DNA of 64,000 nt, from assembly GCA_030602885.1 (NCBI GenBank), contig JAUVYV010000003.1, positions 1-64,000 on the forward strand, read 5' to 3'. Positions 31,992 to 34,493 of the stretch are shown in pieces (position 1 is the stretch's first letter; every line of letters starts with the position of its first letter). This DNA is from Phycisphaerales bacterium. GTDB taxonomy: Bacteria; Planctomycetota; Phycisphaerae; Sedimentisphaerales; Anaerobacaceae. The notes under the pieces were generated by a model. That model was not told where the DNA came from. It did not search any database and worked only from the letters and a program-made list of their open reading frames with translations. The position numbers and the translations under genes were made by a program.

Positions 31992-32702
31992 ATGTTGAGG
32001 AAAATGATGGTTTGTGTGGTGTCGGTTGTTTTGCTGGTCGGGGGTATGAGTATTGCGGCCGAGCCCCTCAGGGGCGAGCAGGGCAAGGGCAAAGGCGAGG
32101 CGAGGCAGGGTCAGGTACAGAAGGGGGCCGGCCAGCGTGTGGACCTGGTTGGTCAGCTTATAAAGGCGTACAAGGCAGGCGATAAGCAAAAGGTCGGTCA
32201 GCTTATCGGTAAGATTGAGCAGCGACGAGAAAAGGTGCGCGAGGGCAGGGGAGGCGGTCGGAAGGCCGGCGTAGGTAGAGGCGGTTGGCACAAGGGTGCG
32301 ATGGTTGGTGGTATGGCTTGGCACGGCAGGGATATGCAAGCAAGAGGCCGTGGTTGGCAAGGGTCCGGGATGCGAGGCGGAGGCGGTTGGCAGAGGGGTG
32401 CGATTGCCGGTGGTATGGCTCGGTGGGACCGCGGCAGGCTTGGTGCTGGTCGGATGTGGAACGGTGCGAGACTGGGACGTGAGGGATTTGGTGGGTCGAG
32501 GCGTGCGGCGGTCTGTCCGCGAGGTTTTCGTGGTGCCGGGCGCGGCAGGAATGGAAGCTGCGGGGCGTGGGGACGCGGGCAGCAGTGGCATGCGCGCGGT
32601 CCGTTCGGTCGTGGACAAGGCGCCCGGGGAGCACGAGGTATGAGAGGGAAGGGACGGGCCTTGCCGAGGATTCCCGAAGCGCGGTTTGAGTGGGACTGGT
32701 AG
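31992..32702 (+). CDS. Exported Gly/Arg-rich low-complexity protein
   Basis: A 236-residue protein with a signal peptide (MLRKMMVCVVSVVLLVGGMSIAA). Residues about 48-80 form a helical segment with an internal repeat (LVGQLIKAYKAGDKQKV / VGQLIGKIEQRREKV). The rest is rich in Gly, Arg and Trp, with two copies of a GGW-x-[KR]-GA-[MI]-x-GGMA motif, visible also as DNA repeats at 32280-32318 and 32382-32420. Ribosome-binding site AAAGGAG; a strong terminator follows. It resembles strongly basic RNA- or polyanion-binding proteins, but export suggests an envelope role. No family recognised. Confidence 0.65.
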   Translation: MLRKMMVCVVSVVLLVGGMSIAAEPLRGEQGKGKGEARQGQVQKGAGQRVDLVGQLIKAYKAGDKQKVGQLIGKIEQRREKVREGRGGGRKAGVGRGGWHKGAMVGGMAWHGRDMQARGRGWQGSGMRGGGGWQRGAIAGGMARWDRGRLGAGRMWNGARLGREGFGGSRRAAVCPRGFRGAGRGRNGSCGAWGRGQQWHARGPFGRGQGARGARGMRGKGRALPRIPEARFEWDW

Positions 32703-32761
32703 AAGAGAAGTGCACAAGGCATAAGAGCATAAGTCACAAGTTCCAGGTTAATGAGAAGCGA

Positions 32762-32797
32762 ACGGCTGGGCAGATGAGTGCCCGGCCGTTTTTTTTT
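32762..32797 (+). terminator. Rho-independent terminator
   Basis: ACGGCTGGGCA (32762-32772), six-base loop, TGCCCGGCCGT (32779-32789), 11-bp stem with one G-T pair, followed by eight more T. It closes the transcript of the Gly/Arg-rich protein. Confidence 0.9.
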
Positions 32798-32890
32798 GAC
32801 GACGAATAGAAACCACCGCCGCACACAGATAGATGGAGCGGTGGGGACGAAGTCCCGCCGTGCCTATCGCGGAGAATCCACAGAGGATGT

Positions 32891-32919
32891 TTGACGTGAG
32901 GGGTGGGTTCGGTTACAAT
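32891..32919 (+). promoter_or_regulatory. Sigma-70-type promoter ahead of a LacI-family relic
   Basis: TTGACG (32891-32896), 17 bases, TACAAT (32914-32919). Ten of twelve consensus positions match with ideal spacing. A palindromic operator begins at the next base. Confidence 0.7.
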
Positions 32920-32939
32920 CAGCACAAACGATTGTGCTG
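32920..32939. promoter_or_regulatory. LacI-type palindromic operator
   Basis: CAGCACAAAC / GATTGTGCTG is an inverted repeat with 9 of 10 matching positions per half and a central CG step, the signature of LacI/GalR-family operators. It covers the predicted transcription start, where a bound repressor would block initiation. The truncated LacI-type reading frame at 32990 suggests an autoregulated regulator gene originally stood here. Confidence 0.6.
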
Positions 32940-32989
32940 TGTATCAGGGAAAGCAAGGCGATTCACAGAGCAGAGAGGATACCGGTTGG

Positions 32990-33100
32990 ATGGCAAAGAA
33001 GCAACAGGTGACGTTTAGGATGATAGCGGAGGAATTAGGGGTATCGGTTTCGACGGTATCTCAGGGCTTTGGATGGCGTTTTGGTGAGCGGGGATATTGA
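32990..33100 (+). pseudogene. LacI-family regulator truncated after the helix-turn-helix
   Basis: A 36-codon frame: MAKKQQVTFRMIAEELGVSVSTVSQ is a clear LacI/GalR N-terminal helix-turn-helix, then GFGWRFGERGY and a stop. The hinge and the roughly 270-residue ligand-binding domain are missing. A heptamer repeat starts at the stop codon and a hairpin repeat lies beyond it, so the rest of the gene was probably lost by recombination or insertion. Promoter and operator are intact. Whether the stub is still made or binds DNA is unknown; without the dimerising domain, stable repression is unlikely. Confidence 0.7.
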
Positions 33101-33140
33101 CTATTGATTATTGACAGTGTTAATCTGCGTTAATCAGTGT
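33096..33140. repeat. Heptamer and decamer tandem repeats
   Basis: ATTGACT, ATTGATT, ATTGACA (33096-33116) is another period-7 array. It is followed at about 33119-33138 by two near-copies of a 10-base unit (TTAATCTGCG, TTAATCAGTG). The array overlaps the end of the truncated LacI frame. Confidence 0.65.
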
Positions 33141-33153
33141 CTAAAAAATGAAG

Positions 33154-33184
33154 CCTGTGCCCGCGAAAGCGGGTAGTTGACAGG
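33154..33184. repeat. Nested hairpin repeat upstream of the ADP-ribosylglycohydrolase gene
   Basis: Outer stem CCTGT (33154-33158) with ACAGG (33180-33184); inner stem CCCGC-GAAA-GCGGG (33160-33173) closed by a GNRA tetraloop. It ends nine bases before the AAGGAGG ribosome-binding site of the next gene. Probably a dispersed palindromic repeat; it may act as a 5' leader hairpin. Confidence 0.6.
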
Positions 33185-33209
33185 TACAAATTTTAAGGAG
33201 GTTTATGTC

Positions 33210-34493
33210 ATGTTATTGAGAAGTGCAGGCACAAAGGTATTGGGTATTGTTCCGCTGGCGCTGGTATGCATTCTTTTTGGCTGTCATGGCGAGGACAAGT
33301 GCAAGCTGAGCAGTCGCAAAGCGGTGGGGGAGGTGAAGATGAAGAAAAGCGTTGTGGAGGACAAGATAAGGGGAGGGTGGCTTGGCAAGACGGCGGGAGT
33401 GTGCATCGGCGGTCCTACTGAGTTTAAGGCAAAGGGCAGGATGTACACAGGGAGGTTGAACTTTTATCCGAATTTCAGCGACGGCTTTGGTCAGGATGAT
33501 ATCTATGTGCAGATAACCTTTGTCGAGGCGATGGACAAGAAGCTGGGTGAGTCGGGCGGTATTTTTGCAGCGACGATGGCAGACTATGGCGAGGCATTCA
33601 AGAACAGCGGGTACAAGCTTTGGCATGCGAACAAGGGTGGTCGAGAGAACCTTAAAAAGGGGATAAAGCCGCCTGAGTCGGGGATGTGGGCGGGTGAAGG
33701 CAAACGGTTTAACAGGTGTGCGAACGATATTGACTGGCAGATAGAGTGCGACTGGGTGGGGCTGATGTGTCCGGCGATGCCGATGACGGCGGTGCAGATT
33801 AGTGACAGAGTGGGCCACGTGATGAATTATGGGGACGGTGTGTATGGTGGTCATTTTGTCAGCACGATGATTTCGCTGGCGTTTGTGGAGAACGATGTCG
33901 AGACGATAGTGAAAACGGCGATAGAGTCGGTGCCGAGGCAGTCGCAGTACTATGCGGTGCTCAAAGACGTTATCGATTATTACGACCAGCATCCGGAGGA
34001 CTTCAAGGGTTGCTGGAAGCAGATAAACGACAAGTGGTTGCGTGAGGCGATAGATTGCAGCGGGCCTGCGGACAATTTCAATATTGCGGCGTCACTAAAC
34101 GGAGCGTTCATTGCGATAGGTTTGCTATACGGCGATGGTGACATAATGAAGACGATCGAGTATTCGACTCGTTGCGGGCAGGATTCGGACTGCAACCCGG
34201 CGAACGCAGGGGCGATTGTGGGGACAATGCTGGGCTATGAGAAGCTGCCGCAGGAGTGGAAGGACGATATTGAGAAGTATCCGAATAACCGGTACAGTCA
34301 CACGAGCTACACGTACACGGACCTGATAAACAGCAGTTTCAAACGTGCGGAGAAGGCGATTTTGCAGACGGGCGGCGCGCTTTCGGGCGATACGTACGTA
34401 ATTAAGCGTGAGCCGGTCCGTCAGCCGAAGATGTTAGAGCAGTACGGGCAAGACCCTGTGGCGAATCCGGATTATTCAAGCTCGCGGGAATGA
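33210..34493 (+). CDS. ADP-ribosylglycohydrolase-family lipoprotein
   Basis: A 427-residue protein. The start at 33210 has AAGGAGG nine bases upstream and opens a lipoprotein signal with lipobox ILFGC. The mature part fits the ADP-ribosyl-[dinitrogen reductase] hydrolase fold: KIRGGWLGKTAGVCIGGPTEF at the start and the metal-site motif GQDSDCNPANAGAIVGTMLG near residue 335. Family members cleave ADP-ribose from proteins in the cytoplasm; an exported form suggests a different N- or O-glycoside substrate, possibly released glycans. It ends nine bases from a convergent gene. Confidence 0.85.
   Translation: MLLRSAGTKVLGIVPLALVCILFGCHGEDKCKLSSRKAVGEVKMKKSVVEDKIRGGWLGKTAGVCIGGPTEFKAKGRMYTGRLNFYPNFSDGFGQDDIYVQITFVEAMDKKLGESGGIFAATMADYGEAFKNSGYKLWHANKGGRENLKKGIKPPESGMWAGEGKRFNRCANDIDWQIECDWVGLMCPAMPMTAVQISDRVGHVMNYGDGVYGGHFVSTMISLAFVENDVETIVKTAIESVPRQSQYYAVLKDVIDYYDQHPEDFKGCWKQINDKWLREAIDCSGPADNFNIAASLNGAFIAIGLLYGDGDIMKTIEYSTRCGQDSDCNPANAGAIVGTMLGYEKLPQEWKDDIEKYPNNRYSHTSYTYTDLINSSFKRAEKAILQTGGALSGDTYVIKREPVRQPKMLEQYGQDPVANPDYSSSRE

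Follow-up and report, generated by a model that had tools for sequence, protein, structure and literature searches.

Among described systems, the closest to the locus reported here are the autoregulated LacI-family repressor genes (PF00356). In the part of the study by Ravcheev et al. (2014, PMC4052901) cited here, 1251 of 1303 LacI motifs are even palindromes and 1173 have a central CG, autoregulation is given for 72% of the LacI regulators, and more than 75% of the sites lie 140 to 30 bp upstream of the start codon. The locus resembles such genes, as far as they are presented in that part of the source, in the position of its helix-turn-helix (HTH) at the extreme N-terminus of the encoded frame and in an even, CG-centred palindrome at the promoter, about 60 bp before the start codon. 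It differs from them in that the frame is truncated inside the headpiece and has no sensor domain, and in that no additional operator turned up in the genome.

The window, meaning the whole 64,000-nucleotide stretch of DNA analysed, lies on contig C17 in the draft genome of a Phycisphaerales bacterium (3.2 Mb in 128 contigs, 97.6% complete). Comparisons were made with 89 genomes of the family, among which the genus is represented by this genome only, and with a wider sample of 397 genomes of the class. Literature searches on truncated LacI pseudogenes or orphan operators and on LacI in Phycisphaerae gave no account of such a case among the matches listed. The features of the locus are collected in Table 1.

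Table 1. Features between the glycine-rich gene and the hydrolase gene, in window coordinates.
Feature	Position	Strand	Remarks
Intrinsic-terminator-like site after the glycine-rich gene	32760..32798	+	13-pair stem and T run; same place in relatives L025 and L026
Sigma-70-like promoter, TTGACG-N17-TACAAT	32891..32919	+	Sequence and consensus scans
Palindrome of 20 bp with central CG, covering the likely transcription start; probable LacI-type operator	32920..32939	+	
Possible ribosome-binding site, AGAGAGGAT	32972..32980	+	About 10 bases 5' of the ATG; proposed by eye
36-codon frame, very probable lacI relic	32990..33100	+	LacI-type HTH at residues ~7-25
+1-frame stretch ALDGVLVSGD	33066..33095	+	Resembles the next LacI residues; suggestive of a frameshift only
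Dispersed repeat	33095..33176	+	33114-33176 in many copies; 33095-33113 in one copy only
ADP-ribosylglycohydrolase-family protein, next gene	33210..34493	+	PF03747, 121.7 bits

Similarity of the short frame to LacI

An earlier note on this DNA, made from the letters alone, had described a 36-codon frame with a LacI-type HTH, and this was confirmed for the frame running from the ATG at 32990 to the TGA ending at 33100. A profile of 30 sequences, built from one LacI domain per locus in the 30 loci returned by a PF00356 search of the family, matched it with an E-value of 4.8e-8, the next best of the 1673 window frames of at least 20 aa reaching 1.1; with a 9-sequence profile the values were 3.1e-6 versus 2.7. 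With a frame of this length, Pfam does not tell LacI apart from the other HTH families: Sigma70_r4 (18.6 bits) and PF00356 (16.2 bits) were both below the cut-off, as were all other matches, and several other HTH families scored as high as PF00356 or higher. A search of the whole genome with PF00356 placed the site of the frame first of three weak matches (E-value 0.155), and a search of solved structures with the reading that passes into the +1 frame (see below) gave six weak matches, the best at 0.12. When the fragment in this +1 reading was searched against the 397 class genomes, 20 were matched at an E-value of 0.01 or better, its own included, and in each of the 19 loci returned for the remaining genomes the 30-sequence profile recognised a LacI domain (E-value ≤1e-9); these domains sit in frames of 236-441 aa, except for a 61-aa frame that extends as far as the edge of its locus.

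The full-length LacI paralogue for which the earlier note had proposed a search was not encountered, in that no LacI domain exceeded the PF00356 cut-off in the 97.6%-complete draft; as the frame itself lies below this cut-off, another divergent LacI could escape detection in the genome. A sensor-domain search with PF13377 alone returned one genomic match, C17:126314-126712. It was rejected as a LacI sensor, since by eye its N-terminus is hydrophobic and an HTH is absent; its product resembles a binding protein that is membrane-anchored or periplasmic.

Promoter and palindromic operator

Both upstream elements of the earlier note were found as claimed, with TTGACG at 32891-32896 separated by 17 bases from TACAAT at 32914-32919, and a 20-base CG-centred palindrome, CAGCACAA-ACGA-TTGTGCTG, directly following at 32920-32939 with 9 of 10 pairs. 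The promoter (10/12 consensus matches) is the sole site found by the consensus scan in 32700-33260; as shuffled sequences average 0.6 sites, it is by itself not beyond chance. It is also the only plus-strand site with at least 8/12 matches in 32799-33209 (spacing 15-19, with the -10 element required to have A at position 2 and T at position 6). Palindromes with 9 of 10 pairs occur twice in the 64 kb, the operator being one of them; when the 411-bp spacer was base-shuffled 2000 times, 17 of the shuffles contained one. Neither promoter nor palindrome is compelling singly, but their abutment, with a frame for a LacI-type HTH 50 bases further on, is. The palindrome, whose centre lies about 60 bp 5' of the ATG, is even, has a central CG and stands near a promoter, as LacI-type operators do in the part of the survey cited above (PMC4052901), and is predicted to be a probable LacI-type operator.

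The search for a regulon that the earlier note had asked for, run with the 20-mer, found no second site in the 3.2-Mb draft genome at up to 3 mismatches. Among the 397 class genomes, the pattern occurred within 2 mismatches in nine, including its own, compared with three for a reversed control. Each of the other eight sites is covered by an open frame, 191-889 aa long, and no LacI domain was found at these loci within about 1.5 kb on each side (best E-value 0.82 among 654 frames); the motif therefore marks no LacI gene elsewhere in the sample of 397 genomes. With neither a LacI domain over the cut-off nor a second operator, the operator counts as an orphan within this draft. The palindrome might instead be bound by another regulator that is intact and still controls the downstream hydrolase gene through it, and its 9 of 10 preserved pairs would suit such a role. 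The missing second copy within 3 mismatches and the lack of an over-cut-off LacI domain, the regulator survey being one of the LacI family, make this unlikely.

An RNA role for the palindrome was considered and rejected, since a transcript starting near 32926 would omit most of the 5' arm, and no Rfam match was found at 32600-33300 up to an E-value of 1. The presumed leader RNA (32926-33240) does have a better fold than the majority of its dinucleotide-shuffled versions (z = -2.66; equalled by 2 of 100), a property for which loss of the regulator gives no need and which counts against that reading. The very intactness of promoter and operator could also count against it, as a sign of selection. 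The 10-base direct repeats that surround the promoter appear to be due to chance.

End of the homology at a dispersed repeat

According to the earlier note, the frame stops where the hinge should begin. The similarity to LacI in fact ends earlier, at about residue 25, or about residue 32 in the +1 reading, which is short of what we take to be headpiece helix 3 and the hinge. Judged by this end and by a single-sequence structure model with two helices only, the frame contains no complete three-helix headpiece with hinge, nor does it contain a periplasmic-binding-protein-like sensor and dimerisation domain, as it ends at 33100.

The +1 reading outscored the in-frame reading with three profiles. 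With the 30-sequence profile it reached 35.7 versus 30.7 bits, a score equalled by 49 of 1000 shuffled tails, for which reason a frameshift is only suggested; with the 9-sequence profile, 155 of 1000 shuffled tails reached the +1 score. In the first frameshift test only 2 of 1000 shuffles scored as high, but that profile included sequences found via the +1 reading.

Beyond the frame lies a dispersed repeat. The segment 32880-33215 had at least 24 non-self matches in its own genome at E-values ≤1e-3 (40 of 56 candidates scored), all of them 25-47 bases long and within 33095-33176, with none in 32880-33094. Two copies are 100% identical, over 33114-33152 and over 33138-33175, and only one of the copies scored, C125:77800-77846, reaches left to 33095 (89% over 33095-33141). 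By this copy, on which the exact left edge of the repeat depends, the stop codon at 33098-33100 would fall inside the repeat. As in a pseudogene, the homology to LacI breaks off at a junction with unrelated sequence, here the dispersed repeat that begins at 33114, or at 33095 by one copy.

The repeat at 33095-33176 is intergenic, with the core ACAGTGTTAATCTGCGTTAATCAGTGTCTAAAAAATGAA, and several of its copies lie, by eye, within a longer common element (L008, L009, L011-L015, L017 and L018).

The profile match, the palindrome and the early end of similarity together support the claim of a truncated LacI-family gene with a promoter and operator of the autoregulation type. We consider it very probable that a LacI-family repressor gene has left the frame as its 5' remnant, the rest of the gene having been lost at the dispersed-repeat junction while promoter and operator survived.

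A repeat at the junction of a draft assembly also brings to mind a misjoin through which the rest of lacI was lost in silico. The non-self repeat matches, at 25-47 bases, are short compared with usual reads, and the hydrolase gene follows a similar glycine-rich gene in two relatives too, so we regard such an error as very improbable. Still less credible is a functional mini-regulator, that is, a translated 36-residue HTH peptide that binds, or competes at, the operator. The frame does have an ATG, a plausible ribosome-binding site and an intact HTH core, and its two helices are predicted with a mean pLDDT of 74; against this, the stub lacks the third headpiece helix, the hinge and the dimerisation part, the pTM of the single-sequence fold is 0.38, the genome holds no second operator within 3 mismatches, and no DNA copy was found in the 397 class genomes among the matches listed. 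Competition for operators by the stub, raised in the earlier note, is unlikely because most of the LacI protein is missing and there is no second operator to be found.

Relatives and the possible link to the hydrolase gene

DNA from 32799 to 33110 matched only itself across the 397 class genomes at E-values ≤0.001, among the matches listed and with at most two candidates per genome scored. The conserved stand-alone frame that the earlier note had named as speaking against its reading was not seen in these genomes. A comparable HTH-only lacI fragment exists in genome G027 (C70:2698-2800, within L087:2301-2800), where it forms a 39-aa open frame between genes. Unlike the frame described here, it has a different LacI HTH sequence, shares 93% DNA identity across 103 bp with a full-length lacI located elsewhere on its contig (L089), and adjoins about 398 bp that are 82.5% identical to the upstream region of that full-length gene, in permuted order.

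The gene upstream of the terminator encodes a glycine-rich protein (31992-32702) whose N-terminus is signal-like and for which neither Pfam nor NCBIfam gave a match up to an E-value of 1. The downstream gene, encoding an ADP-ribosylglycohydrolase-family protein, has by eye a good ribosome-binding site and an N-terminus resembling a lipoprotein signal. Synteny was assessed in two metagenome-assembled genomes labelled Phycisphaerales and found with the hydrolase protein, at loci L025 (genome G024) and L026 (genome G027). Both have the order glycine-rich gene, terminator, hydrolase gene, with a distance of about 200 bp from one gene to the other, hydrolase identities of 69 and 71%, and N-terminal similarities of the glycine-rich protein of 35% and 39%, respectively. 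Pairwise BLASTP of this N-terminal part gave 5e-15 and 9e-15 for G024 and G027, as single comparisons; phmmer gave weak values (5.7e-5 and 1.4e-6) with a large bias correction, and a search of the 89 family genomes at E-values ≤1e-6 matched the own genome, G026 and G007, and not G024 or G027. In G026, the glycine-rich gene is followed, by eye, by a gene other than the hydrolase. The common gene order is only moderate evidence, given the weak similarity in wider searches and the different arrangement in G026.

The hydrolase loci L025 and L026 showed no LacI domain, and genomes G024 and G027 contained no site within 2 mismatches of the operator. Hydrolase homologues occur in 56 of the 89 family genomes at an E-value of 1e-30, the own genome included. 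The 29 distinct loci around the best of them (31 returned, two of them doubles, own locus excluded; reach mostly 1.5 kb per side, some cut by contig ends) contain no LacI domain, the best E-value among 3511 frames being 0.13, and within the family no over-cut-off LacI match was seen by eye within 100 kb of a hydrolase match on one contig. With no lacI near the hydrolase gene in relatives, a LacI regulator is not apparent as its old partner in the loci examined, and the proposal that LacI was the former regulator of the hydrolase is not supported.

The earlier note also saw the hydrolase gene as left under the old promoter or deregulated. Between the upstream terminator and the hydrolase gene, the scans found no sigma-70-like site other than the remnant promoter, which may therefore now drive that gene unrepressed. 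The spacers of L025 and L026 align with each other at 81% and have no significant match to the spacer of the window, and they contain other candidate promoters. Capture of the remnant promoter, as the sole and derepressed promoter of the hydrolase gene, is a tentative reading to which we give a little less than an even chance. Somewhat more doubtful, though also possible, is that the hydrolase gene has an unrecognised promoter of its own and that the relic is silent debris. The two relatives share a weak candidate site in their spacers (TTGCCG-N17-TATTGT, 8/12) and have another candidate, TTGACA-18-CAAAAT (10/12), at the start of the hydrolase gene, and real promoters can be missed by consensus scans; against this stands the lack of a second plus-strand site with at least 8/12 matches at 32799-33209.

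Discussion

We take the frame to be a genuine, ordinary remnant of a regulator gene, of which the promoter, its own operator, the leader and the first ~25-32 codons would survive. With no repressor left, the promoter would be constitutive, and transcription would proceed through the remnant and the repeat into the hydrolase gene; any 36-residue peptide made on the way would be a non-functional by-product. LacI regulation as it is known is unchanged by this finding. The locus neatly illustrates how a regulator gene that represses itself can decay and leave its neighbour a usable promoter.
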